Origin: Oscillospiraceae bacterium
GTDB lineage: Bacteria; Bacillota; Clostridia; Oscillospirales; Oscillospiraceae
Reading direction: 5' to 3'
Length of the DNA stretch: 64,000 bases
Assembly: GCA_017469795.1 (NCBI GenBank)
Contig: JAFUFT010000052.1
Span: 1-64,000, forward strand
The position numbers were made by a program, and so were the translations under genes. Under the pieces are notes generated by a model. It was not told the origin of the DNA. It saw nothing but the letters and a program-made list of their open reading frames with translations, and searched no databases. Positions 30,521 to 44,641 of the stretch are shown here, piece after piece (positions within the stretch are counted from its first letter, which is position 1; the number at the start of each line of letters is the position of its first letter).

Positions 30521-30548
30521 AAAAATCCTGCCGAAAGGCAGGATTTTT
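30521..30548. terminator. Bidirectional terminator at the 3' end of rnpB
   Basis: AAAAATCCTGCC and GGCAGGATTTTT form a perfect 12-bp stem with a GAAA loop. It starts one base past the predicted 3' end of rnpB on the minus strand. Confidence 0.92.
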
Positions 30549-30957
30549 GTGATCTGGCCTGTAAGCCGGGTTCTGTAATCGACAGCCATCTATCTAGGCC
30601 CAGCGTTGCCGCTGGGCTCCAGCCACCTGAGCGGGGACAGCCGGGCCGGCCTTGTCCCCAATGCGGTGTTGCTCCGGATAGAGTTTACAGGACTGCGCGC
30701 TTTTACACGGCAGCCGGTGAGCTCTTACCTCGCCTTTCCACCCTTACCGCCGCAGCCGCCAATTGCACGATCAGGCGAGCTCAAAGGCTCAAAAGGTTGA
30801 CATCGTGATGGCGTGAAGCGGCGGCGGTATATTTCTGTTGCACTTTTCCTATAGTCGCCTACGGCGGGCGTTACCCGTTATCCTTGCCCTATGGAGCCCG
30901 GACTTTCCTCACAGGGGGCCTTTCGGCACACCGTGCGCGGCTGTCCGGCCAGGTCAC
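30549..30957 (-). ncRNA. rnpB: RNase P RNA, bacterial type A-like
   Basis: The catalytic RNA of RNase P, which matures the 5' ends of tRNAs. Read on the minus strand it has the universal 5' block GAGGAAAGTCCGGGCTCC and the 3' block ACAGAACCCGGCTTACAGGCC, read in parts. The first helix (P1) is seen as GTGACCTGGCC at the 5' end pairing with GGCCAGATCAC at the 3' end. The length is about 409 bases. Ends are set by P1 and the adjoining terminator and may be off by a few bases. The whole 30471-31101 interval has no protein gene. Confidence 0.95.
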
Positions 30958-31545: not shown

Positions 31546-32450
31546 TTGCGCTCGGCTTTGACACAAGCAACTATACCACATCCTGCGCCTGGTTTGATGG
31601 GACCGGCGGCGAGAATTCCGGCCGCCTGCTGGAGGTGAAGTCCGGTGAGTTGGGACTGCGTCAATCTGACGCCCTATTCCAGCATGTGAAACGGCTTCCG
31701 GAAATCCTTGCGGATCTGTCCCTGCCGAAAGACATCCGCGCCGTTGGGGCAAGCACCCGCCCCCGGGCAGTTGTCGGCTCTTATATGCCCTGTTTTCTGG
31801 CAGGAGCCTCCCAGGCTCAAGTGGTTGCGAAAGCACTTCAGGTTCCGTTTTACGCGTTTTCCCATCAGCAGGGCCATCTGGCGGCAGTGCTTTGGAGCGC
31901 CGGCCGCATGGACCTGCTGGAGCGAGACTTTCTGGCGTGGCATCTTTCCGGCGGAACTACTGAACTTCTTTTGGTGAAACCGGGATTGCAGGCGGAGAAG
32001 ATCGGCGGCACCCGGGACCTGTCGGCAGGTCAGCTCATTGACCGGACCGGACAGATGCTTGGACTGGATTTCCCGGCCGGGAAGGCCATCGACGCGCTTG
32101 CAGGAGACCTTCAGATGGGTGCTTATCCGGTCAAGGTCCATAATATGGAGTTTTCCCTGTCCGGGATGCAGAATAAAACCGAGCAGATGCACAAAAGCGG
32201 CGCCTCTGATGCGGAAACTGCGGCTTTTGCGCTGTCCTGTGTGGCGGACGCTGTGAAAAAGGCAACTGAACAGGCACTGGGGCAATACGGCGGGCTTCCG
32301 GTGGTGTTTACCGGCGGTGTAGCATCAAACTCTCAGCTCCGGCGGAATATGGCGCCCCTTGGCGCCTTATTTGGTCCCCCGCAGTTTTCCACAGATAACG
32401 CCATGGGGATCGCTGTTTTAACGTATTATGCGGAGAAGCAACATGGATGA
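31542..32450 (+). CDS. TsaD/Gcp-like protein (O-sialoglycoprotein endopeptidase family paralogue)
   Basis: A 302-residue protein with the ASKHA-like fold of TsaD. The N-terminal LGFDTSNYTTSCAW replaces the TsaD GIETSCDET signature. The usual HxxxH metal motif appears only as SHQQGHLA near residue 106. It lacks full-length TsaD features (about 335-340 residues), so it is probably a paralogue of the tRNA threonylcarbamoyl enzyme rather than TsaD itself. A second, true tsaD is expected elsewhere. It overlaps nusB by four bases and xseA by eight, indicating tight coupling. Its function is not established. Confidence 0.78.
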   Translation: MIALGFDTSNYTTSCAWFDGTGGENSGRLLEVKSGELGLRQSDALFQHVKRLPEILADLSLPKDIRAVGASTRPRAVVGSYMPCFLAGASQAQVVAKALQVPFYAFSHQQGHLAAVLWSAGRMDLLERDFLAWHLSGGTTELLLVKPGLQAEKIGGTRDLSAGQLIDRTGQMLGLDFPAGKAIDALAGDLQMGAYPVKVHNMEFSLSGMQNKTEQMHKSGASDAETAAFALSCVADAVKKATEQALGQYGGLPVVFTGGVASNSQLRRNMAPLGALFGPPQFSTDNAMGIAVLTYYAEKQHG

Positions 32451-33717
32451 ACAATTGATCTTAGAAGTTAGTCAGGTCACAAGCTATATCAAGGAGATCA
32501 TGGACAGCGACGGTCTGCTGACCGGCCTGTGCATTCGCGGCGAATTGAGCAATTATAAGACCTATCCCTCGGGACATCACTATTTCACGCTGAAGGACGG
32601 GAAAGCGGCGCTGAGCTGCGTCATGTTCCGCTCCAATGCGATGCGCCTGCGGTTCCGGCCGGAGAACGGTATGACGGTGTTGGCCGCCGGACGGATCACA
32701 GTCTATGAACGTGACGGGAAATACCAGCTTTACTGTGTTTCTATGAGTCCGGAAGGGGCAGGAGATCTCTCCGTTGCGTTTGAACAGCTGAAGAAGAAGC
32801 TCTCAGCGGAAGGTCTGTTCGATGAATCCCATAAAAAGCCCATACCGAAGTATCCGCATCGGATCGCGCTGATCACCTCTTCCGCAGGCGCTGCGCTTCA
32901 CGATATGCTCCGGATTCTGGGGCAGCGGTATCCGCTCTCGGAAGTGAAACTGCTTCCGGTTCGGGTACAGGGAGCAGAGGCGCCCGGAGAAATCGCCGCA
33001 GCTCTGGATCACGCAAATCGTTGCCGTGTGGCAGATTTGATCATAACCGGACGGGGCGGCGGCTCCATGGAAGATCTCTGGGCCTTTAACGAAGAGATCG
33101 TTGCGCGGGCCATTTACCGGTCTGAGATCCCGGTGATCTCTGCAGTGGGACACGAGCCGGACGTGACGATCTCCGATTATGTGGCGGATCTTCGGGCCGC
33201 AACGCCCTCCAACGCCGCAGAGCTGGCCACCCCGGACAAGCAGGATCTCATTGTTCGGCTGCGGCACCTGAACTCCCGTATGGCCCAGAGCCTCGGGAAG
33301 CGTCTCAAGCTCTCCCGCCAGCAGCTTTCTTTGCGGACCAGCGCCAGAGTTCTGCGATCTCCTATGGAATACCTGGAGGACAGGAGGCAGCAGCTCGACA
33401 GCGATATGGAGCGGCTGGCGCAGCTGATGACGATGCACAGCGGCAAGGCGAGAACCGATCTTCTGCGGAGGCAGGAACGGCTTCCGGCCGCCTGGCAGTC
33501 GAGCATCCTCAACCGCAGGCAGCAATCAGGCACCCTGGCTGCGAGGCTGGACGCAATGAGCCCGCTGAAGGTCCTTTCCAGGGGATACAGCATTACAGAG
33601 AAGTCCGGCGGCAGCGCGATTCGCTCCGCTTCGGAATTGAAAGCCGGTGAACAGATCCGGATCCGATTCTCAAAAGGGTCTGCGCTTGCATCGGTGGATC
33701 AGATCATGGAGGAATAA
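32443..33717 (+). CDS. xseA: Exodeoxyribonuclease VII large subunit
   Basis: A 424-residue catalytic subunit of ExoVII, which degrades single-stranded DNA from both ends. The N-terminal OB domain (LEVSQVTSYIKEI, RGELSNYKTYPSGHHYFTLKD in parts) is followed by the nuclease core (ITSSAGAALHDM, GRGGGSMEDLWAFNEE, SAVGHEPDVTISD) and a long coiled coil. ATG 32443 is chosen because GGAGAAG lies just upstream; an ATG at 32428 lies before this site. The xseB gene follows after two bases. Confidence 0.96.
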   Translation: MDEQLILEVSQVTSYIKEIMDSDGLLTGLCIRGELSNYKTYPSGHHYFTLKDGKAALSCVMFRSNAMRLRFRPENGMTVLAAGRITVYERDGKYQLYCVSMSPEGAGDLSVAFEQLKKKLSAEGLFDESHKKPIPKYPHRIALITSSAGAALHDMLRILGQRYPLSEVKLLPVRVQGAEAPGEIAAALDHANRCRVADLIITGRGGGSMEDLWAFNEEIVARAIYRSEIPVISAVGHEPDVTISDYVADLRAATPSNAAELATPDKQDLIVRLRHLNSRMAQSLGKRLKLSRQQLSLRTSARVLRSPMEYLEDRRQQLDSDMERLAQLMTMHSGKARTDLLRRQERLPAAWQSSILNRRQQSGTLAARLDAMSPLKVLSRGYSITEKSGGSAIRSASELKAGEQIRIRFSKGSALASVDQIMEE

Positions 33718-33719
33718 TC

Positions 33720-33950
33720 ATGGCTAAAAAATCACAGACCTTTGAAGCTTCTATGGAGCGGCTGGATGAGATCGTTAAGCTCCTGGAAAACGGCGATGTG
33801 AGTCTGGAGGAATCCATCCGGCTGTTTGAAGAGGGGACGAAACTGTCCGCCCAATGCAGCAAGCTGCTGGATGAAGCCGAGCTGAAGGTCACACAGCTCA
33901 TGCAGGGGCCGGATGGCACGCCCGTGGAGCAGGAGATTCCCAATGCCTGA
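33720..33950 (+). CDS. xseB: Exodeoxyribonuclease VII small subunit
   Basis: A 76-residue helical protein that binds the coiled coil of XseA and is needed for ExoVII activity. The motif FEASMERLDEIVKLLENGDVSLEESIRLFEEG (read in parts) is typical. GAGGAATA precedes ATG. Its 3' end overlaps the ispA start by eight bases. Confidence 0.96.
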   Translation: MAKKSQTFEASMERLDEIVKLLENGDVSLEESIRLFEEGTKLSAQCSKLLDEAELKVTQLMQGPDGTPVEQEIPNA

Positions 33951-34824
33951 GTTCAGTGAGGAGCTGAAGCGGCTCCAGGCAATGACAGAGTCGTATCTCG
34001 CGGAGCAATTCACGCAGCAGGCCGAATACGGCGTTCTTCTCGAAGCCATGCGATACAGCCTGATGGCGGGCGGGAAAAGGATCCGTCCCGTCCTGGTGAT
34101 GGCCTTTTGCGAGGCATGCGGAGGATCTGCAGAAACTGCGCTGCCTGCTGCCGGCGCGATTGAAATGATCCACACCTATTCGCTGATCCATGATGATCTG
34201 CCGTGCATGGACAATGACGATTACCGCCGCGGCATGCTGACCAATCACAAGGTGTACGGAGAAGACATCGCAACGCTGGCCGGAGATGCGCTCCAGCCGG
34301 CTGCGTTCCGGACGCTGTCCTTGCTTTCGGTCTCTCCGGCGCAGACGCTTCGATGCGTCAGGATCCTTGCCGAAGCGGCAGGGGAACACGGAATGGTTGC
34401 CGGTCAGATCCTGGATCTTTCCGGGGAAACACGCGCGTTGACAGAAGCGGAACTTCGGGAAGTCCATCTTCACAAAACCGGAGACCTGATTCGGGCGGCA
34501 TGTCAGATGGGAACCGTTCTCGGAGGCGGATCAGAGGAACAGATCAATGCCGCCGGAGATTTTGCGCTGCATCTGGGTATGGCTTTCCAGATCCGTGATG
34601 ATATTCTGGATTGCGTCGGCACAGCGGAAGAACTCGGGAAGCCCATTGGATCCGATGCGGAAAACGGCAAAAGCACGTTCGTGACGCTGTTTGGCCTGGA
34701 TCGTTGCCAGGAGTTGGTTGCACAGGAAACAGATCTGGCCCTTGACGCACTTCAAAACGGCGGGTTTATTCGAACCGATTTTCTTGAAAAACTGGCAAAA
34801 TCCATGGTTTCCCGCCGCAAATGA
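33943..34824 (+). CDS. ispA: Farnesyl (geranyl) diphosphate synthase
   Basis: A 293-residue trans-prenyltransferase that makes farnesyl diphosphate from isopentenyl and dimethylallyl diphosphate, the substrate of UppS. GGKRIRPVL, the first Asp-rich motif HDDLPCMDND with RRG, and the second Asp-rich motif DDILD are intact. ATG 33943 is preferred for its GGAG upstream. A promoter and the long structured RNA follow directly. Confidence 0.96.
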   Translation: MPEFSEELKRLQAMTESYLAEQFTQQAEYGVLLEAMRYSLMAGGKRIRPVLVMAFCEACGGSAETALPAAGAIEMIHTYSLIHDDLPCMDNDDYRRGMLTNHKVYGEDIATLAGDALQPAAFRTLSLLSVSPAQTLRCVRILAEAAGEHGMVAGQILDLSGETRALTEAELREVHLHKTGDLIRAACQMGTVLGGGSEEQINAAGDFALHLGMAFQIRDDILDCVGTAEELGKPIGSDAENGKSTFVTLFGLDRCQELVAQETDLALDALQNGGFIRTDFLEKLAKSMVSRRK

Positions 34825-34847: not shown

Positions 34848-34875
34848 TTGCAAAACTCAAGTGATATGCTATAAT
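34848..34875 (+). promoter_or_regulatory. Promoter of the OLE-type RNA
   Basis: TTGCAA (34848-34853) and a perfect TATAAT (34870-34875) are 16 bases apart. A transcript would start near 34882, right where the gene-free region begins. Confidence 0.65.
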
Positions 34876-34881
34876 ATTCAG

Positions 34882-35510
34882 CATGCATTCATTCGCTATT
34901 TTCCTTATGACGGCGCAGTATTCTAGTCAGAGCCCACGGTTCTTAGGGAGGGCCTAAAAATCCTCTGAAGGGCATATCGATGAAGTCCCTGGTGCTTGCT
35001 TGTTACGCCCAGTTTCGGGTGGGTGCTGGGGGTTAAGGATTTCGGGCGATTCTCAATGGCATGAGAACCTCGACCCGGCTTCCGTGGAGACCTGTTATTG
35101 TGCGACAGCCTGCGTATCTTGTGTACCAATGGGGACTGCGTACGAAACAGGATTAAACCTGTAAGGCGGTGCAATCGTGCTGCGTACAGTGTAGCCTGCC
35201 TTGCGTGGCTGTGGAGGAAAGAGGAGCTACGCGCACAGGTCTGCCGGCCGCAGATTTTGTGTGATATTCTCTTGAAACCTCATCTGCAAAAGAGGCTAAA
35301 GAACTGATGGGACTGTTGTGGAAAGCACCTAGACTGTCCATGTGGGGCAGACGGGGGATTACAGTGCGGACTAAGTGGCAATCGGGCATCGGCAAGGGTG
35401 ACCTGCCGGCACGGACTCCAAGGGGAAACCACCTCACCGGCAACGGGAGGCAGTCCGCGGGGAAAACCAGCCAGACCTAAGCCGTAAGATTAATCCCGTC
35501 TGCTGCCGTC
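34882..35510 (+). ncRNA. ole: OLE RNA (ornate large extremophilic RNA)
   Basis: About 630 gene-free bases between ispA and an OapA-like gene. OLE RNAs are about 600 bases and are known in exactly this position in Firmicutes, followed by oapA, dxs, tlyA, argR and recN. Independent structural signs: a 3' domain closed by 35347-35355 with 35495-35503 plus ATTA (35358-35361) with TAAT (35491-35494); a stem 35366-35372 with 35452-35458; CGGCA/TGCCG at 35390-35408; GATTCTCA/TGAGAACC near 35049-35069; and ACAGG/CCTGT at 35147-35162. No ribosome binding site with a credible frame is present. The identity rests on context and structure; I could not score it against the covariance model. In Bacillus halodurans the RNA forms a membrane complex linked to alcohol, cold and magnesium tolerance. 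Confidence 0.82.
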
Positions 35511-35537
35511 AATTTAATTGATTCCTGGAGGTTGCTC

Positions 35538-36152
35538 TTGAAATCGGACATATCTAACCGGCAGAAGAAAAAATCCAAGCCGGGTAAATCGAAAAACACC
35601 GCCTGGATCCTTATGATCTTTTTCAGCACAGTGGTTATTTCCGCCGGATTATCCATTGTTTCCGACGTACTTTTAACCACGGCGAACCTGATCGCTTCCT
35701 TTTGCATCCTTCTTGTGATCGTGCTGATCGGCATCCTGTTCGACATCATCGGAGTTGCAGTCACTGCGGCGGATTCCAAGCCTTTTCACTCCATGGCTGC
35801 ACACCGGGTCAGAGGCGCCCAGGAGGCGCTTGCCATGCTTCGAAACGCAGATAAGGTATCATCCTTCTGCAACGATGTGATCGGCGATATCTGCGGTGTG
35901 GTTTCCGGAACCGCTTCTGCAGCCATCGCAGCCGTTGTGATATCCGGTCACACCGGCGCTCCGGTCTGGTTCGGAGTTCTGATGGCTTCGTTGGTCTCCG
36001 GCGTTACGGTGGGCGGCAAAGCGGTCGGAAAATCTCTGGCCATGGCAGGATCTACAGAGATCGTCCATCTGGCTGCAAGAATCGTGTTTTATGCCAAGTA
36101 TATGCCGGACCGGATCTCCAAAGCCGTCCGCAAATGGCGGCGTACAAACTAA
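35538..36152 (+). CDS. oapA: OLE-associated membrane protein OapA
   Basis: A 204-residue basic integral membrane protein. A Lys-rich N-terminus (residues 8-20) precedes four predicted membrane segments (about 22-45, 50-75, 115-135, 142-160), and a basic Lys/Arg tail ends the chain. The polar centre carries GVAVTAADSKPFHSMAAHRV and FCNDVIGDICGVVSG, which fit the DUF21/CNNM-like core attributed to OapA. In B. halodurans OapA binds OLE RNA and places it at the membrane. Its position directly after the RNA and before dxs matches. The TTG start at 35538 is chosen for GGAGG six bases upstream; another TTG lies two codons earlier. Confidence 0.85.
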   Translation: MKSDISNRQKKKSKPGKSKNTAWILMIFFSTVVISAGLSIVSDVLLTTANLIASFCILLVIVLIGILFDIIGVAVTAADSKPFHSMAAHRVRGAQEALAMLRNADKVSSFCNDVIGDICGVVSGTASAAIAAVVISGHTGAPVWFGVLMASLVSGVTVGGKAVGKSLAMAGSTEIVHLAARIVFYAKYMPDRISKAVRKWRRTN

Positions 36153-36170: not shown

Positions 36171-38027
36171 TTGGATCTTTTGGAACGTGCGGAAAACCGT
36201 GAGGAATTTCTGGCCATGGGGCCGGAGGAAACCGCGGCGCTCTGCGGCGAAATCAGAAGTTTTTTGATAAACAGTGTGGCAAAAACGGGAGGCCATCTGT
36301 CCTCCAATCTCGGCGCAGTAGAGCTCACAGTGGCTCTTCACCGGGTCTTTGACCCCTATCGGGACCGAATCCTGTTTGACGTGGGCCACCAGAGCTATGT
36401 ACACAAGCTCCTGACCGGCCGTCGGGAGGGATTCCGGCATCTTCGAAAATTCGGCGGAATGGCCGGTTTTCCCAAGCCATCGGAATCCGATGCGGACGCA
36501 TTTGTTGCCGGGCACGCCTCCAACTCCGTTTCCGCTGCGCTGGGAATCGCCCGGGCTAGAACTCTGATGGGTGAGGATTACAGTGTGATCGCGGTGATCG
36601 GTGACGGCGCCCTCACCGGCGGACTTGCCTATGAGGGTCTGAACGATGCCGGGCAGAGCAGAGAACCGCTGATCGTAGTGCTGAACGACAATGGAATGTC
36701 CATTCAGCCAAATGTGGGCGGCATGTCCAAATTCCTCGCAAGACAGCGGCTGAAACCCTCTTACCTGAACTTTAAACGCGCTTTTCACAGTTTTGTCAAG
36801 GTTGTCCCCGGCGGCAAGCATCTTCACAATGTGGTCCATCGGGTAAAACGCTGGATGAAAAATGCGCTCATCGGCAGCAATATGTTTGACGAGATGGGGT
36901 TCACCTATCTTGGTCCTGTGGACGGCCACGACATCAAAAAAATGACGTTCCTGCTTCAGCAGGCAAGGGAACTGAACTGTCCCGTACTGCTCCATGTAAC
37001 GACAACAAAGGGCCGCGGCTACAGCTATGCCGAGGAAAGCCCGGATGAGTTCCACGGAGTCGATCGTTTCAATGTGGCGTCCGGAACCAGCAGCGGTAAG
37101 AAAACCGAATCCTTTTCCGCTGCGTTCGGAAAGAGCATGTGCGCCATGGCCAAGGAGGATCACAGGATTTGCGCAGTCACTGCCGCTATGGAGCAGGGGA
37201 CCGGCCTGAGTGAATTCGCGGCCAATTATCCCAAACGGTTCTTTGACGTGGGAATTGCGGAGGGTCACGCGGTAACCATGAGCTGCGGTCTGGCAAAACA
37301 GGGCATGCTTCCGGTTGTGGCTGTTTATTCCACTTTCCTGCAGCGTGCCTATGATATGCTGATTCATGATGCCGCGCTGGGCAATCTCCATGTGGTGTTT
37401 GCGGTGGATCGTGCGGGGCTTGTTGGGGCCGACGGAGAAACCCATCACGGAGCCTTTGATCCCTGTTTCCTTCGTACTGTGCCGAGAATGACGGTCCTTG
37501 CGCCAGCCTCCACAGACGAGCTGCGCATGACCCTGCACCATGCGGTATATGATGTATCAGGTCCTGTAGCCGTTCGATATCCGCGGGGCGGAAACGGTAC
37601 TTATACCGACTGTATTCTCTCCGACACAGTCCTCCGCTCCGGCAGTGACGTTACGATCGTCTCCTACGGTCCCATGATCTGCGAGGCGATGGATGCGGCT
37701 CGCATTCTTTCCCAGCAGGGAATTGAGGCGGAGATCATAAAGCTCTGGTCCCTGGCCCCCCTGGACACCTCTTTGGTAGAAGAATCAGTCCGAAAGACCG
37801 GACGGCTCCTTGTGCTTGAGGAGTGCGTGGAATCCGGCTGCGTCGGTCAGGAACTGATTGCAAAGCTGTCGGAGAAGAATGTTACGCCCGCTGTGCGGCT
37901 TGTAAATCTGGGATCTGATTTTGTGACTCACGGTACAGTCCCTCAGCTGCATCAGATGCTGGGAATTGACGGAAAATCTGTAGCAAATAAGGTAAAGGAG
38001 CTTTTCATTGAAGAAGCAGCGACTTGA
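36171..38027 (+). CDS. dxs: 1-deoxy-D-xylulose-5-phosphate synthase
   Basis: A 618-residue thiamine diphosphate enzyme that condenses pyruvate and glyceraldehyde 3-phosphate, the entry step of the MEP pathway; DXP also feeds thiamine and pyridoxal synthesis. GGHLSSNLG, DVGHQSYVHKLLTGR, the ThDP motif GDGALTGGLAYEGLNDAG and VDGHDI are seen, with the transketolase middle and C-terminal domains after residue 300. The start is TTG at 36171, whose frame matches the family N-terminus; its ribosome binding site is weak. The 3' end overlaps tlyA by 20 bases. Confidence 0.95.
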   Translation: MDLLERAENREEFLAMGPEETAALCGEIRSFLINSVAKTGGHLSSNLGAVELTVALHRVFDPYRDRILFDVGHQSYVHKLLTGRREGFRHLRKFGGMAGFPKPSESDADAFVAGHASNSVSAALGIARARTLMGEDYSVIAVIGDGALTGGLAYEGLNDAGQSREPLIVVLNDNGMSIQPNVGGMSKFLARQRLKPSYLNFKRAFHSFVKVVPGGKHLHNVVHRVKRWMKNALIGSNMFDEMGFTYLGPVDGHDIKKMTFLLQQARELNCPVLLHVTTTKGRGYSYAEESPDEFHGVDRFNVASGTSSGKKTESFSAAFGKSMCAMAKEDHRICAVTAAMEQGTGLSEFAANYPKRFFDVGIAEGHAVTMSCGLAKQGMLPVVAVYSTFLQRAYDMLIHDAALGNLHVVFAVDRAGLVGADGETHHGAFDPCFLRTVPRMTVLAPASTDELRMTLHHAVYDVSGPVAVRYPRGGNGTYTDCILSDTVLRSGSDVTIVSYGPMICEAMDAARILSQQGIEAEIIKLWSLAPLDTSLVEESVRKTGRLLVLEECVESGCVGQELIAKLSEKNVTPAVRLVNLGSDFVTHGTVPQLHQMLGIDGKSVANKVKELFIEEAAT

Positions 38028-38808
38028 TATTTTACTTTGCGACAAGGGCCTCTGCGAAAGCCGTTCCAAAGCACAGGCTGTCATTATGGAGGGCCTCGTG
38101 TTTGTGAATGAGCAGCGCGTGGACAAGGCAGGGACGCCCGTTGATCCTGAGGCTAAGATCGAGATTCGGGGAAACACCTGTCCCTATGTGAGCCGCGGCG
38201 GTCTGAAACTGGAGAAAGCGCTCCGGTATTTTGGCGTAGACCCGACAGGATTTGTATGCAGCGATTCCGGCGCCTCCACCGGCGGCTTTACCGACTGCCT
38301 TCTTCAGCAGGGGGCAAAAAAGGTCTTCGCCATCGACGTCGGATACGGTCAGCTTGCCTGGAGCATCCGCAGCGATCCGAGGGTGGTCGTCATGGAACGG
38401 ACCAATATCCGCAACGTGACGCCGGAGATGATCGGTGAGCCCCTGGATCTGAGCGTGGTAGATGTGTCTTTCATCTCTCTGCGGCTGGTCCTTCCTGTGA
38501 TCCGGGATCTTCTCGGCCCGGACGGACAGGTATTATGCCTGATCAAACCGCAGTTTGAGGCCGGAAAAGAAAAAGTGGGGAAAAAAGGCGTTGTTCGGGA
38601 TATTGCAACGCATATTGAAGTTTTGGATCAGTTCCTGGAAACCGCCGGGAATCTCGGCTTCACGGTGGTGGATCTGACTTATTCTCCGGTCAAAGGACCG
38701 GAGGGCAACATCGAATTTCTCGGCCACCTGTCGCGGAAACAAGTCCCGGTGAGGAAGTTTTCCCCGGAAGCGGTTGCTATGGAAGCTCACGAGAAACTGA
38801 AGGGGTGA
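38008..38808 (+). CDS. tlyA: TlyA family rRNA 2'-O-methyltransferase
   Basis: A 266-residue protein with an N-terminal S4 RNA-binding domain (RLDILLCDKGL to about residue 60) and an FtsJ-like methyltransferase domain. The SAM-binding DSGASTGGFTDCLLQ, AIDVGYGQL and VVDVSFISL segments are clear. Homologues methylate ribosomal RNA; some were named hemolysins. TTG 38008 has AAGGAG eight bases upstream and lies within the end of dxs. Confidence 0.92.
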   Translation: MKKQRLDILLCDKGLCESRSKAQAVIMEGLVFVNEQRVDKAGTPVDPEAKIEIRGNTCPYVSRGGLKLEKALRYFGVDPTGFVCSDSGASTGGFTDCLLQQGAKKVFAIDVGYGQLAWSIRSDPRVVVMERTNIRNVTPEMIGEPLDLSVVDVSFISLRLVLPVIRDLLGPDGQVLCLIKPQFEAGKEKVGKKGVVRDIATHIEVLDQFLETAGNLGFTVVDLTYSPVKGPEGNIEFLGHLSRKQVPVRKFSPEAVAMEAHEKLKG

Positions 38809-38812
38809 TAAT

Positions 38813-39673
38813 TTGAAAAAAATTGCTTTGATGCCGAACCCCTATCGGGATCGCGGGTTTCAGATCACGCAGGCTGCGGAAAAGATTCTGCAGGAACACG
38901 GAGCGAAAACCCAGATTTGTCTGCCGTTTCATGTGGAAAAAGGGCATGAGTTCCCCTCAGGGATGCGTTTTGTGACCATGGAAGAAGCATTTCGGGATTG
39001 TGATATGATGATCTGCTTCGGCGGAGACGGTACGATCCTTCATGCCGCCCGTCTTGTCGGGAATCGTGACATCCCCATGCTCGGTGTCAACACCGGGACC
39101 ATGGGGTTTATGGCCGAGCTTGAAAGTGATGAGCTGGATCTCCTGCCAAAGGTTCTCGAAGACCATGTTCCCTGCGAAGAACGCATGATGATCCACGTTG
39201 CGGTCAAACGGGACGGAAGGATCCTCTATGAGGACAATGCGCTCAATGACGCCGTGATCACCAAAGGCGCAGTGGCGCGCGTGATCCAGCTGACTTTGAC
39301 CTGCGACGGCGTGGAGGCCATGCATTTTGACGGTGACGGCATTATCATCTGCACGCCTACCGGCACGACCGCCTATTCGATGTCGGCCGGAGGACCGATT
39401 GTGGAGCCGACAGCGCGCAATATCATCGTCACCCCGATCTGCGCCCACGCCATTGGGATCCGATCTCTGGTGCTGATGCCGGACCGGGTTGTGACTGCCC
39501 ATGTAGGAAGGATCGGCACCCGCAACGCGTTTTTGTCTGTGGACGGCGGAAAGGCGATCAAGCTCTGCGCCAATGATCAGGTAGTGGTAACGGCTTCCCG
39601 CCGTTCTGTCCGGCTTGCCAAGGTCAAAAACGTCAGTTATTACAGCACCATCAACCAGAAATTTCAGAGGTAG
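38813..39673 (+). CDS. nadK: NAD kinase
   Basis: A 286-residue kinase that phosphorylates NAD to NADP. The diagnostic FGGDGTILHAAR (with the GGDG motif), NTGTMGFMAE and the NE/D-like NDAVITKG, followed by DGDGIIICTPTGTTAYS (read in parts), are present. It starts with TTG at 38813 after AGGGGTGATAA. It supplies NADPH for Dxr in the same region. Confidence 0.95.
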   Translation: MKKIALMPNPYRDRGFQITQAAEKILQEHGAKTQICLPFHVEKGHEFPSGMRFVTMEEAFRDCDMMICFGGDGTILHAARLVGNRDIPMLGVNTGTMGFMAELESDELDLLPKVLEDHVPCEERMMIHVAVKRDGRILYEDNALNDAVITKGAVARVIQLTLTCDGVEAMHFDGDGIIICTPTGTTAYSMSAGGPIVEPTARNIIVTPICAHAIGIRSLVLMPDRVVTAHVGRIGTRNAFLSVDGGKAIKLCANDQVVVTASRRSVRLAKVKNVSYYSTINQKFQR

Positions 39674-39678
39674 AGTAA

Positions 39679-40137
39679 ATGAAGAGTCAGAGACAGGCCA
39701 AGATCTTGGAATTGATCGGCCAAAAAGATATTGAAACCCAGGAGCAACTGCTGCTGGCATTGGAAGAGTCGGGATTTCGCAGTACCCAGGCCACAATATC
39801 CCGCGACATCAAAGAGCTGCGTATCGTCAAAGAACTGTCCCCGGCGGGTGCTTACCGTTATACCGTACAGCAGAACGACGCCATGAATCTGTTTTCCCGG
39901 CTCAACAATATCTTCCGGGAAAGCGTGATCAAGGTGGATTACGCGCAGAACATCGTCGTCATCAAAACGCTCCCGGGCCTTGCCAACGGCGCCTGCAGCG
40001 CTGTGGACAGCATGGACATCGCCTATGTGGTAGGGACCATAGCCGGAGACGATACCGCCCTGATCGTCATGAGGGAAACAGAATACGCCCGAGAGTTCTG
40101 CGAGGAACTCCGGGGCATCATCAATCGGACCAGATAA
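39679..40137 (+). CDS. argR: Arginine repressor
   Basis: A 152-residue hexameric regulator with an N-terminal winged helix (ATISRDIKELRIVKE) and a C-terminal arginine-binding domain with GTIAGDDTALIVMRE. In Firmicutes it represses arginine biosynthesis and activates catabolism. Its place between nadK and recN is the usual conserved position and need not reflect function. It starts five bases after nadK. Confidence 0.95.
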   Translation: MKSQRQAKILELIGQKDIETQEQLLLALEESGFRSTQATISRDIKELRIVKELSPAGAYRYTVQQNDAMNLFSRLNNIFRESVIKVDYAQNIVVIKTLPGLANGACSAVDSMDIAYVVGTIAGDDTALIVMRETEYAREFCEELRGIINRTR

Positions 40138-40149
40138 GAGGAATGCGGT

Positions 40150-41802
40150 ATGCTGGATTTGCTGCACATTGAGAATATTGCTGTTATCGAACAGGCGGAT
40201 ATTTCCTTTGAGCCGGGGTTCAATGCCCTGACCGGTGAGACAGGTGCGGGCAAATCCATTGTCATTGACGCTATTTCCGCCATCCTTGGACAGCGGGCCT
40301 ATCGGGACGCCATCCGTACCGGCGCGGCATGCGCGAAGATCTCAGCGCTGTTCCGCGGCGTGCCTGAATACTCCTGGTTTGCTGAAAACGGTGTGGAATA
40401 TAGTTCTGAGCTTCTCATTCAGCGGGTAATCTATGCCGACGGGAAAAACATCTGCCGGGTCGGCGGAACGCCTGTTTCCGTCACCATGCTCCGGGGCCTG
40501 GGTTCGCTTTTGATTCAAATCCACGGTCAGCATGACTCTGCGCAGCTTTTCGACGAGGCAAACCACCTTGTGATGCTGGATGCCTTTGCCGGCCATGAGG
40601 ACCAAATTGCCGAATACAGAGCAGCCTATCAGGAGATGGACGTGCTGAGGCGGCAGATCCGCAGTATGACCATGGACGAAGCGGAAAAGCTCCGTAAAAT
40701 CGAATCCCTGCAGCATCAGATTCAGGAAATCGAACGAGCCGAACTTCACGAGGGCGAAGATCAGGAGCTGGAACAAAAGCGCAGCATCATGCGAAGCGGC
40801 GAAAAACTGATGTCCGCTCTGAACCGTGCCTCTGAGGCTTTATACGGGGGAGAGGACAGCGACGGCGCATCTGCACTGACCGCTCAGGCAGCAAGGGATC
40901 TATCCTCGGTGGCAGATGTATCCGCTCAGATGGACCGTGTTTACAAGTTGGTAGAAGAGCTGAGCTTCAATGTTCAGGATGCGGCGGAGCAGGTACGGGA
41001 TCTTCGGGACAGCTTTGATTTTTCCCCGGGGGCGCTGGAAGAAGTGGAAGCAAGGCTTGACGTCATTCACAGGCTGAAGCGGAAATACGGATCTGACTGT
41101 GAAGAGATCCTTTCTTATCTTGCCCGGTGCAAAAAAGAACTGGACGAGATCGAAATGTCCGATGAGACCATTCTTCGCTTGAAGAAGGTCCTGCATGAAA
41201 AAAAGGTAGTCACCAGAGCTCTGGCAGATGCCCTGACGGAGGCCAGAAAACAGGCGGCAGCTGTGTTTGAGGACCGGCTGATTACCGAACTGCGGCAGCT
41301 GGATATGCCGCGGGTGCAGTTCGTTGTTGGTCTTCAGAAGAAAGCCCATCTTGATGAAACGGGCGGTGATGACTGCAGGTTCCTGATGTCCGCCAATGTT
41401 GGAGAAGATTTGCGACAGATGAGCCGGGTCGCCTCCGGCGGCGAGCTTGCGCGCATCATGCTTGCCATGAAAAACGTGCTCTCGGAAAAGGATCAGATCC
41501 CGACGATGATCTTTGACGAGGTTGACACCGGCGTATCCGGCCGGGCCGCCCAGAAGGTTGCGGAAAAGCTCCACGCAGTTTCGGTTGGGAAACAGGTTCT
41601 CTGCGTCACGCATCTGCCGCAGATTGCCGCCATGGCGGATACACATTTCCTGATTTCCAAAGCGGAGCAGGATGGACGCACCTATACCAGCGTAACGCCC
41701 CTTGATGCTGCGGGCCGCCGGGAGGAAATCGCAAGGCTCATCGGCGGTGCAAAGATCACAGATACGACTCGAAAAAGCGCCGAAGAAATGCTGCAGCGCT
41801 GA
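40150..41802 (+). CDS. recN: DNA repair protein RecN
   Basis: A 550-residue SMC-like ATPase acting early in double-strand break repair. Walker A is GETGAGKSIVIDAI near residue 32. The C-terminal signature VASGGELARIMLA and Walker B PTMIFDEVDTGVSG are intact, with a coiled coil between (about 150-370). AAGAGGAATG precedes ATG. It is the last gene of the nusB cluster; a T-rich stretch but no stable hairpin follows. Confidence 0.97.
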   Translation: MLDLLHIENIAVIEQADISFEPGFNALTGETGAGKSIVIDAISAILGQRAYRDAIRTGAACAKISALFRGVPEYSWFAENGVEYSSELLIQRVIYADGKNICRVGGTPVSVTMLRGLGSLLIQIHGQHDSAQLFDEANHLVMLDAFAGHEDQIAEYRAAYQEMDVLRRQIRSMTMDEAEKLRKIESLQHQIQEIERAELHEGEDQELEQKRSIMRSGEKLMSALNRASEALYGGEDSDGASALTAQAARDLSSVADVSAQMDRVYKLVEELSFNVQDAAEQVRDLRDSFDFSPGALEEVEARLDVIHRLKRKYGSDCEEILSYLARCKKELDEIEMSDETILRLKKVLHEKKVVTRALADALTEARKQAAAVFEDRLITELRQLDMPRVQFVVGLQKKAHLDETGGDDCRFLMSANVGEDLRQMSRVASGGELARIMLAMKNVLSEKDQIPTMIFDEVDTGVSGRAAQKVAEKLHAVSVGKQVLCVTHLPQIAAMADTHFLISKAEQDGRTYTSVTPLDAAGRREEIARLIGGAKITDTTRKSAEEMLQR

Positions 41803-41887: not shown

Positions 41888-41966
<79 letters not shown>

Positions 41967-41967
41967 G

Positions 41968-42001
41968 AAGCCTTGAAACACTTGTGTTTCAAGGCTTTTT
42001 T
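41968..42001 (+). terminator. Terminator after tRNA-Ala (element side)
   Basis: AAGCCTTGAAACAC pairs with GTGTTTCAAGGCTT, followed by a T-run. It differs from the terminator after attR, so it came in with the element. Confidence 0.92.
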
Positions 42002-42014
42002 CGTACCCGGAACT

Positions 42015-43232
42015 TTAGCGGACCTCGCGCAACTTTTCCCGACCAGAATTCTGACCAGAATTACCTTTGTGCATAATATACAGATTAGACAGCGGTATGA
42101 TTTTGCAGTTTGACGAAGGATCGTCGGGCGGGATCGTACCGCTGAACGCTTTGGCAAAACGCTCGATGGCGTCCTGCCGGATCGGCTCCTGCACATGGAG
42201 ATAATGCTGCGTCATGTTCATGTCCGCGTGGCCCACGATGCTCTGAATGGTGGCCAGGTCCACACCCAGGGCCTGCATCTGGCTGACGTAGGTGTGGCGG
42301 CAGCAGTGAGGCGTCAGTACCCGGACGCTGCCCACCTCTTCCAGAGCCTTCTTGAAGTAGCTGCGGAAAGTCTTGGGATTGATGACTTGCCCGGGCTTCC
42401 CTTCCCAGAGGTATGTACCCGCCTGCTCCCGCAGGAGCCGGGCGCAGTAGCGCACGTTCTCCGGCACCGGGATGTCCCGGTAGCTGTCCCGGGATTTGGG
42501 GATGCCCACCCGGGCCGTGCCCTTGTCCATGTTGATGGCCTGGCGGATCTGGATCAGGGAGCCGTCCTCGGCCACGTGCTTCGGCTCCAGGGCCAGCAGC
42601 TCCTGGGTGCGCATGCCCGTGCCCAATAGCAGCCGGATACTCCAGCCGATCCTGTTCTCCGGCAGCTCGTTGAAGAGCGTCTGCACTTCCTCGGCGGTGA
42701 AGGCGTCCCTGGTCTGTTCCGGCCCGCGCCTGCGGAGCTTGTCCGCGAAGGCCACCGGGTTCTTGCGGATCAGGTCGTTGGCCTCGGCCTTGTGAAAGAT
42801 CTGGTAGAGCATGCCCCGGCATTGGGACAGCCGGGAATAAGACGCGCCCTCCCGCTGCTGCTTTTTGAGAAAGCCCTCAATGTCCAGAGGTTTGATCCCC
42901 CGGAGCGCCCGGTCGGTGAAATGCTCCTTGAGGATGCGCAGGGTGTACTTGTAGTTCTCCTGGGTGGTGGGCGCTATGTTGCACTTGTGCTGCTCGTACC
43001 AGAAGTCCGCCCATTCGGAGAAGCCCCAGAGTTTGTCGGTGTCCAGTCCGGCCGCCTCATCCTCCTGAAATTTGCGGAGCTTGGCGCGGACCTCCTTTTG
43101 GGTCTGCCCATAAAACGAACGATATTTTCTTTGGCCGTTGTCCCGGAAGCCCACCATCACGGTGCACTCCCACCGGCCGTCCTGTCGCTGACGGAGAGTG
43201 CCCTCTCCGTTGGATCTTCTTCTCTTTGCCAA
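42015..43232 (-). CDS. Tyrosine recombinase / phage-type integrase
   Basis: A 405-residue site-specific recombinase. An N-terminal arm-binding domain (GEGTLRQRQDGRWE), a SAM-like core-binding domain (about 75-165) and the catalytic domain follow in order. Catalytic residues are Arg in GTGMRTQELL, His-x-x-Arg in HCCRHTYVSQ, His in VGHADMNM and the nucleophile Tyr in TQHYLHV. The TTG at 43232 is chosen because AAAGGAG lies six bases upstream. Third codon positions are richer in G and C than in recN, which suggests foreign origin. It faces the tRNA end of the element. Confidence 0.93.
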   Translation of the reverse strand: MAKRRRSNGEGTLRQRQDGRWECTVMVGFRDNGQRKYRSFYGQTQKEVRAKLRKFQEDEAAGLDTDKLWGFSEWADFWYEQHKCNIAPTTQENYKYTLRILKEHFTDRALRGIKPLDIEGFLKKQQREGASYSRLSQCRGMLYQIFHKAEANDLIRKNPVAFADKLRRRGPEQTRDAFTAEEVQTLFNELPENRIGWSIRLLLGTGMRTQELLALEPKHVAEDGSLIQIRQAINMDKGTARVGIPKSRDSYRDIPVPENVRYCARLLREQAGTYLWEGKPGQVINPKTFRSYFKKALEEVGSVRVLTPHCCRHTYVSQMQALGVDLATIQSIVGHADMNMTQHYLHVQEPIRQDAIERFAKAFSGTIPPDDPSSNCKIIPLSNLYIMHKGNSGQNSGREKLREVR

Positions 43233-43331
43233 TGAATACTCCTTTCTGCTGGCAAAGGCTTCTTGCTGTGAAGCCATTATACCGCTGAATCGAACCGCGC
43301 GGAAGACTCTTTTTTCAATTATGCCTTACTT

Positions 43332-43535
43332 TCACGCACAGGCGCGATCGTTCATCCATTCGATCAGCTTGTCCCGATGCACCACCATGCGCTTGCCGAT
43401 CTGGATCGTCGGGAACCCCTTGGAATGCATCAGCGCATAGGCGTTGGCCCGGGAAATGCTGAGCACCGAGGCTACCTGGTCAGCGTTCAGCGTCAGGGGA
43501 AGCTGGCTATAGGATGTATAAACGATACTGCTCAT
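43332..43535 (-). CDS. Excisionase-like helix-turn-helix protein
   Basis: A 67-residue DNA-binding protein with the MerR/Xis-like pattern LNADQVASVLSISRANAYAL followed by FPTIQIGKRMVVHRDKLIEWM. Small proteins of this type beside an integrase act as excisionase or directionality factor. ATG 43535 has AAGGAGAG upstream; a longer frame begins nine codons earlier. It lies 99 bases upstream of the integrase and is probably cotranscribed with it. Confidence 0.85.
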   Translation of the reverse strand: MSSIVYTSYSQLPLTLNADQVASVLSISRANAYALMHSKGFPTIQIGKRMVVHRDKLIEWMNDRACA

Positions 43536-43583
43536 GTGTTCTCTCCTTGTACCAGACGTCAAATAATGAACATTTTGATAGAT

Positions 43584-43599
43584 AAAATAGACCTATTTT
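43584..43599. promoter_or_regulatory. Operator-like palindrome upstream of the excisionase gene
   Basis: AAAATAG-AC-CTATTTT is a perfect inverted repeat about 50 bases before the excisionase start, a plausible autoregulatory or Xis-binding site. Confidence 0.4.
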
Positions 43600-43644
43600 G
43601 ATGAAAAATATGCATTTTCAGAACATGGATTTTCTCGCGAGCCG

Positions 43645-43692
43645 ATGGCATTCAAGAGGTCAGCGGTTCGATCCCGCTTATCTCCACCACGA
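43645..43692 (+). repeat. attR: 48-bp direct repeat (tRNA-Ala 3' half)
   Basis: Identical to 41919-41966. It contains only the anticodon-loop-to-CCA half of tRNA-Ala and cannot form a tRNA. It marks the distal end of the element. Confidence 0.95.
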
Positions 43693-43727
43693 AAACCGTT
43701 GGAAACACTTCGTTTCTGACGGTTTTT
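43692..43727 (+). terminator. Terminator after attR, probably the original tRNA-Ala terminator
   Basis: AAAACCGT (43692-43699) pairs with ACGGTTTT (43719-43726) with further pairs inside, followed by T. It is the host-side counterpart of the terminator at 41968. Confidence 0.75.
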
Positions 43728-43756: not shown

Positions 43757-44641
43757 ATGTCTGTTCAGAGCAGAATGATTCGGTTTCTATTCACCAGAAG
43801 TGACAACAAACGGGATGCCGGATTGTGTACACCCGATGAAATCATACGGAGCGATGATATTTGCTATGGAGACAATACCAAATGGCAGGTATTGGATGTC
43901 TATCGTCCCAAGATGTCCGGGATCCAGCCCCTTCCGGTGATTGTCAGTGTCCACGGTGGCGGCTGGGTATACGGAGACAAAGAGCGTTATCAGTACTACT
44001 GTATGGATCTGGCCCGACGCGGATTTGCCGTGGTGAATTTCACCTATCGGCTGGCTCCCAGGCATAAGTTTCCTGCATCCCTTGAAGATACTTCGCTTGC
44101 CTTTTCCTGGGTCAGCACAAACGCAAAGCAGTATGGTCTTGACCTGGACCATGTCTTTGCTGTGGGCGACTCCGCCGGGGCGCATCTTCTTGGCTTGTAC
44201 TGCTGTATGTGCGTGAATCCGGAATACGCCCGGTCATATTCCTTCGCAGCGTCTGCCATGCTGAAGCCAAACGCCATAGCGCTGAACTGCGGGATCTATG
44301 AGATACGCACCACAGGCGGGTCCATGAACAAGTCCTTGATGAAAGATGTGTTGCCGGAAAAGGGGACAGACGATGAACTGGAACAGATCAATGTTCTCAG
44401 ACATATGAATTCAGATTTTCCTCCAGTCCTGTATATGACATGTTCCGGGGATTTCCTTCAGGATCAGGCGGCGCTGCTTGGCGAGAGACTACATAAACTG
44501 CAGATCCCGTCTGTCAGCAAGTTCTACGGGGACAAAGATCATATACTGCCCCATGTGTTTCACTGCGACATCCGTTCCCATGAGGCGGCACGATGCAATG
44601 ATGAAGAGTGCGCATTCTTCCGATCCTTTCTCAGTTTCTGA
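43757..44641 (+). CDS. Alpha/beta hydrolase, HSL-type esterase
   Basis: A 294-residue cytoplasmic esterase/lipase-like enzyme. The oxyanion motif HGGGWVYGD is near residue 72 and the nucleophile elbow GDSAG near residue 137. The remaining triad members are probably in MTCSGDFLQDQ and the His of KDHILPHVF. There is no signal peptide. GAGGTGAG precedes ATG 43757. It is transcribed toward the two-component genes from just outside attR and could deacylate plant or bacterial acyl esters; the substrate is unknown. Confidence 0.85.
   Translation: MSVQSRMIRFLFTRSDNKRDAGLCTPDEIIRSDDICYGDNTKWQVLDVYRPKMSGIQPLPVIVSVHGGGWVYGDKERYQYYCMDLARRGFAVVNFTYRLAPRHKFPASLEDTSLAFSWVSTNAKQYGLDLDHVFAVGDSAGAHLLGLYCCMCVNPEYARSYSFAASAMLKPNAIALNCGIYEIRTTGGSMNKSLMKDVLPEKGTDDELEQINVLRHMNSDFPPVLYMTCSGDFLQDQAALLGERLHKLQIPSVSKFYGDKDHILPHVFHCDIRSHEAARCNDEECAFFRSFLSF

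Follow-up and report, generated by a model that had tools for sequence, protein, structure and literature searches.

OLE is a large, membrane-bound non-coding RNA to which, to our knowledge, no biochemical task has been assigned in any organism; among bacterial RNAs of this kind it ranks with the largest and most conserved, and nearly all of its genetics comes from one alkaliphile. Its literature covers dimerisation, membrane localisation, stress phenotypes and the binding of OapB, OapC, bS21 and ArgR, of which ArgR was found to bind OLE RNA in Halalkalibacterium halodurans (PMC10898510). Published counts put OLE in 2,822 Bacillota genomes, with uncultured gut clades among them, and an anticorrelation of OLE and MpfA across Bacillota has been published (PMC11332333). 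In OLE variants 1 and 2 (TANB77, RF39), P7-P8 is shortened or missing and OapB and OapC are largely absent (PMC11332333). The DxxxD motif is the hallmark of OapA and separates it from the CNNM proteins (PMC11332333). A further defining trait of OapA is that it binds OLE RNA at a ratio of 2:1. The A-rich loop of P4 (an A-A contact) and the GGCC of P9 (a symmetric kissing loop) are the published contacts of the OLE dimer (PMC12286853, PMC12265935), and the P3/P3.1 helix has been proposed to cross the membrane.

The window analysed here, a 64,000-nucleotide stretch of Oscillospiraceae DNA, was found to contain a locus which, judged from its sequence, is a full-length OLE RNA gene together with its partner gene oapA, and thus an ordinary, complete example of a known RNA class.

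The OLE gene, its structure and its neighbours

A comparison of the entire window with Rfam showed an end-to-end match of the OLE model RF01071 on the + strand (model 1-616; 469.8 bits, E 9.4e-135, gathering cut-off 50 bits; Table 1). The remaining Rfam matches in the 64-kb window were an RNase P RNA at 30546-30956 (-) and the tRNA at 41888, and no others. In the window ORF list, just short mechanical reading frames of 69-100 aa overlap the OLE interval. The preliminary description had called this interval an OLE RNA free of a coding frame, and the significant covariance-model match agreed with it on both points. OLE was present as a single copy in the window's genome (3.06 Mb, 101 contigs). 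The Rfam alignment contained P7, P8, P9 and P13 at full size with no deletion of these stems, and the RNA is assigned on its sequence to the full-length type and not to variant 1 or 2. The size by which OLE is recognised, about 600 nt with about 25 paired elements showing covariation, compares with 632 bases and 24 helix segments here.

Table 1. Positions of the OLE RNA, its sequence elements and the surrounding genes in the window
Feature	Position	Strand	Details
xseA, exonuclease VII large subunit	32428-33717	+	PF02601
xseB, exonuclease VII small subunit	33720-33950	+	PF02609
ispA, polyprenyl synthase	33913-34824	+	PF00348
Promoter-like site of ole	34848-34875	+	TTGCAA 34848-34853, 16 bases, extended -10 TGC-TATAAT, -10 at 34870-34875
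OLE RNA	34894-35525	+	RF01071 bounds, 632 bases, full-length type; mature ends may differ
Outermost stem (putative P1), 5' strand	34909-34914	+	partner 35505-35510; double changes at 5/6 pairs among 97 relatives
Stem with palindrome CUAG (putative P2), 5' strand	34916-34926	+	partner 35329-35336; consensus and covariation
Long helix closing domain 1, 5' strand	34928-34942	+	P3.1 34928-34930/35313-35315; P3 34936-34942/35300-35307
Hairpin with A-rich loop UAAAAA (putative P4)	34947-34966	+	loop columns invariant in 97 sequences; stem in Rfam match and in consensus
GGCC, self-complementary, loop of long P9 arm	35246-35249	+	sequence; >90% conserved
3' domain	35346-35504	+	closed by 11-pair stem 35346-35356/35494-35504; 11/11 pairs with double changes
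Shine-Dalgarno GGAGG of oapA	35527-35531	+	directly 3' of ole; 6 bases before TTG start
oapA	35538-36152	+	204-aa membrane protein, pI ~10, TTG start; family A1/A3
dxs	36171-38027	+	PF13292
tlyA-type S4/FtsJ methyltransferase	38008-38808	+	PF01728, PF01479
nadK	38813-39673	+	PF01513, PF20143
argR	39679-40137	+	PF01316, PF02863
recN	40150-41802	+	PF02463 and position
Phage-type integrase of tRNA-Ala element	42015-43277	-	
AlpA/HTH_17 excisionase-like gene of tRNA-Ala element	43332-43562	-	

The structure was examined in an alignment of 97 distinct full-length OLE sequences, taken from whole genomes and from public contigs reached via OapA. The RNAalifold consensus, obtained without the Rfam structure as input, was found to contain 24 helix segments, each with pairs changed on both sides, and among them four long-range stems that are unpaired in the Rfam model, with the 5' strands and partners given in Table 1. 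The names P1, P2, P3.1 and P3 were inferred for them from position and from the published description (PMC12265935). In these four stems and the closing stem of the 3' domain, 96.2% of cells held standard pairs, compared with 34-51% in slid controls; double-change cells numbered 566, compared with 159 +/- 12 after shuffling and 66-138 after sliding. Double changes were found in 10/10 pairs of P3/P3.1 among the 97 relatives. The several long-range stems noted earlier were thus recovered by covariation; the closing stem of the 3' domain, which had been described as a bulged helix of 13 bp, was also recovered, but with 11 pairs. RF01071 was observed to leave P1, P2 and P3/P3.1 single-stranded despite this covariation.

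The Pfam matches gave the gene order nusB, tsaD, xseA, xseB, ispA, ole, oapA, dxs, tlyA, nadK, argR and recN, which is usual for OLE and which, from xseA to recN, is the order that had been proposed. Of the companion genes named with it, GH78 and GH3 genes were present, and a GH2 gene too; the gene at 43757-44641 encodes a BD-FAE/alpha-beta hydrolase, a family whose name points to a likeness with feruloyl esterases. The GH2, GH78 and GH3 genes are found on the far side of a small element integrated at tRNA-Ala and showed no link to OLE. This element of 1.7 kb at tRNA-Ala(GGC), window 41888-43704, was observed to be flanked by 60-base direct repeats (41919-41978 and 43645-43704, 93% identical) that correspond to the 3' portion of the tRNA gene, and its predicted cargo seems limited to its own mobility genes.

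Promoter and putative operator of ole

The promoter-like site upstream of the window's ole was found to contain 10 of 12 consensus bases. Since such sites are expected by chance (3 in 1.8 kb, against 1.3 +/- 1.4 expected), this match on its own proves nothing. Among the relatives, 88 of 96 ole genes were found to contain a promoter-like site (score >=9, within 95 bases upstream) against 31 +/- 4 in shuffles, mostly 10-25 bases ahead of the first stem and with the consensus cTTGnATATTC...TnTGnTATAATat; in Oscillibacter sp. ER4 the ole promoter reads GTATATCTTGCATATTC. The window's site lies about 20 bases farther upstream than in most relatives, and no promoter-like site was found at the homologous place in the nearest relative examined (G001, locus L006). 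The promoter of its own that had been attributed to the RNA is therefore real as a sequence and common among relatives, but is missing from that place in G001. OLE would probably arise both as part of the operon transcript and from an extended -10 promoter of its own, with trimming afterwards.

In 16 of 97 ole genes the palindrome GAATATnTTGnATATTC, allowing at most 2 mismatches, was found to cover the promoter's -35, where 0.05 would be expected; this ratio overstates the evidence because the motif was derived from the same sequences. Centred on the -35, it is a possible candidate for a repressor site specific to ole. The palindrome was observed upstream of ole in L016, L046, L049, L053, L054, L056, L063, L064, L069, L079, L094 and others. 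Upstream of the window's own ole, which has the promoter-like site, no copy was found at up to two mismatches. It may tentatively be proposed, with the balance leaning against it, that ole in the Oscillospiraceae and their kin has a dedicated extended -10 promoter a short way ahead of its first stem and is more than a passenger of the operon, with the -35 in one group inside the operator GAATATnTTGnATATTC for a putative repressor, so that OLE would be made and switched apart from the isoprenoid genes.

Three further candidates were rejected. A regulon for GAATATnTTGnATATTC was not obtained, as few single-mismatch sites were found besides ole and both of the sites examined lay inside open frames. 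ARG boxes as the ole operator were without support, because the 14-base TGAATnnnnATTCA (<=2 mismatches) was found in 21 of 97 upstream regions, within the shuffle range (13.7, up to 21); ArgR keeps its interest solely through its binding of OLE RNA in H. halodurans. The motif CTTGnATATTCA was not a general promoter motif: it occurred once per genome in G121 and G129, at the ole promoter, and its additional copies in G077 and G149 lay inside open frames.

OapA, its partners and the distribution of MpfA

The product of oapA was found to match Pfam CNNM weakly (E 0.0056, under the curated cut-off), and 14 of 18 OapA homologues matched it with a best E of 4.5e-8. Sequence searches of OapA against solved structures, single and profile, gave no match; fold comparison alone gave one. 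The AlphaFold model (pLDDT 89) was found to resemble the transmembrane domains of two CNNM/CorC magnesium transporters, with rmsd 2.6-2.9 over 126-132 residues: MtCorB had Z 13.4 (rmsd 2.6, 132 residues) and TpCorC had Z 12.0. The next unrelated entry stood at Z 8.2 and rmsd 6.6. The DxxxD motif was present as D113 and D117 and was invariant in 39 proteins. The adjoining gene had been described as OapA, and its DxxxD motif, its CNNM-like fold and its occurrence in the same genomes as OLE bear this out: the protein is OapA, with a predicted fold of CNNM kind.

Compared with the MpfA proteins of the family, the CNNM signature FGExxPK was found to read GGKxxGK in OapA, with the CNNM proline lost; because the profile comparison of OapA and MpfA was weak (probability 17.5%, E 0.0014), the two signatures were set in register by the local motif and by the fold that both proteins have in common. 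A lysine in place of the conserved CNNM glutamate was observed to be invariant in the 39 aligned OapA proteins (K161 in the window's OapA; also L135, L136, L138). Ion transport by the route of MpfA is not assured for OapA because of this invariant replacement, and OapA may not move Mg2+ as CNNM proteins do.

The window's genome was found to contain an OapB gene between map and infA, encoding a KOW protein that matched the solved OapB 7k9b (E 2.3e-8), and an OapC/YbxF gene between rpoC and rpsL, encoding a protein of the L7Ae type that matched YbxF 4lck (E 2.9e-16). No NCBIfam model recognised the window's OapA or the OapB of its genome. The oapA, oapB and oapC genes were all intact, the latter two in their customary places, so that the genome has a gene for each protein with a demonstrated essential role in the particle of H. 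halodurans.

Among 150 genomes of the same family, OLE was found in 40 and OapA in 40, the sets being identical (110/110 absent in both; Fisher p ~2e-37, a statistic that ignores shared ancestry). OLE was also found in 13 of 23 sampled genomes of other families in the order. An OLE-like sequence was found just upstream of OapA in 78 of 80 public loci, the other two starting too near a contig end, and these 80 loci belonged for the most part to MAGs of the rumen, caecum, colon and faeces. Papillibacter cinnamivorans (L066), a cultured relative with OLE, falls in the window organism's family. OLE in a gut anaerobe is thus common, and therefore the earlier suggestion that the RNA works here in an unusual setting falls. 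Adjacency was observed to be broken rarely, as in G032 (L017), where a gap of about 2.5 kb between ole and oapA contains a lipoprotein-like gene; in G147, of the same genus, the gap is about 0.3 kb. Broken OapA genes in two OLE-containing genomes (G123, G094) were considered and rejected, the reported stops lying outside the gene and the frames being intact.

MpfA has the domain order CNNM-CBS-CorC_HlyC, and its CorC_HlyC domain (PF03471) was used as the marker. The marker was found in 9 of 40 genomes with OLE, in which OLE and an MpfA-like protein therefore coexist, against 99 of 110 without OLE (Fisher p ~4e-15, uncorrected for ancestry), and the search for PF03471 in the window's genome gave no match. 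The exclusion is partly a reflection of shared ancestry. Swaps between OLE/OapA and MpfA were found within genera: in g11 (G137 with OLE only, G013 with MpfA only), in g76 (G162 with OLE/OapA, G078 with an MpfA-like protein) and in g83 (G165, G085). The genus g72 breaks the pattern, as G074 carries both OLE and MpfA. The family-level data reproduce the anticorrelation known across Bacillota and strengthen the idea that OLE and MpfA replace each other. In G002, from the window's genus, neither OLE/OapA nor a CorC_HlyC protein was observed; because its assembly is fragmented and 88% complete, this double absence may be missing sequence.

Reading of the locus and comparison with known systems

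With strong though not complete confidence, the locus may be read as encoding a full-length OLE RNA that would form a particle with OapA, OapB and OapC, a helper under stress which most likely is an RNA-controlled metal-handling unit of CNNM type standing in for MpfA. This mechanism is drawn from work on H. halodurans, Clostridium acetobutylicum and C. botulinum (PMC11332333, PMC12265935, PMC12286853, PMC9723947, PMC10898510). OLE would dimerise by loop-loop contacts and by way of the A-rich loop of P4 and the GGCC in the loop of P9; dimers of OapA would hold it at the membrane, which the P3/P3.1 helix would possibly cross, and OapB and OapC would fold and switch it. The particle would aid the cell under Mg2+, alcohol, cold or poor carbon source stress, most likely acting through OapA in the place of MpfA.

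An improbable alternative is that the interval is a structured cis leader of an oapA-dxs-tlyA mRNA, acting as a riboswitch-like regulator with no separate RNA. The lack of a terminator between OLE and oapA, the oapA ribosome site directly after it and the transcription of the H. halodurans cluster as a single mRNA (PMC12265935) would all suit such a leader, but it would hardly survive the separation and intervening gene found in G032, no switch-like alternative pairing was predicted beside the oapA start, and OLE of H. halodurans is abundant, stable and works with proteins made elsewhere (PMC12265935). The chance that OLE is a remnant, a recognisable structure without a working particle in the gut lineage, appears very small: loss is evidently frequent, because OLE is absent from roughly three in four of the family genomes sampled, yet the window's RNA has a high full-model score, only 12 unusual pairs among 157 and its invariant nucleotides, the oapA, oapB and oapC genes are intact, and the genome has no MpfA to take over.

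It is equally hard to credit that the adjoining gene encodes just a small CNNM-type transporter of the common sort, with no part in what OLE does. The absence of CBS and CorC_HlyC domains, the DxxxD motif in place of the CNNM signatures and the presence of OapA in exactly the genomes with OLE stand against this, and outweigh the CNNM-kind fold and the weak Pfam matches on which it would draw. The parts worth following are the promoter pattern of ole and the MpfA swaps within genera: the conserved promoter is a handle on the timing of OLE synthesis, and the swaps provide matched species pairs for testing whether particle and exporter do the same job.

The window's RNA shares with the OLE RNAs of H. 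halodurans and C. acetobutylicum the full-length match, P7-P9, the 3' domain stems, the invariant loop nucleotides, oapA directly downstream and the usual neighbours, whereas its host is a gut-type anaerobe of the Oscillospiraceae and a promoter-like site precedes the RNA. Compared with the Rfam OLE, its stem at 35092-35150 has a loop enlarged by an insertion of 18 bases. Gut hosts are common to it and to variants 1 and 2 of the TANB77 and RF39 clades; unlike these, the window's RNA keeps P7-P8 and its genome keeps OapB and OapC. The window's OapA is likewise a small, basic membrane protein with DxxxD and a CNNM-like fold plus an extra helix, adjoining ole, and showed no notable difference from known OapA. 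With the MpfA/CorC/CNNM exporters it shares the transmembrane fold, whereas it is without their CBS and HlyC/CorC domains and has DxxxD and GGKxxGK instead.
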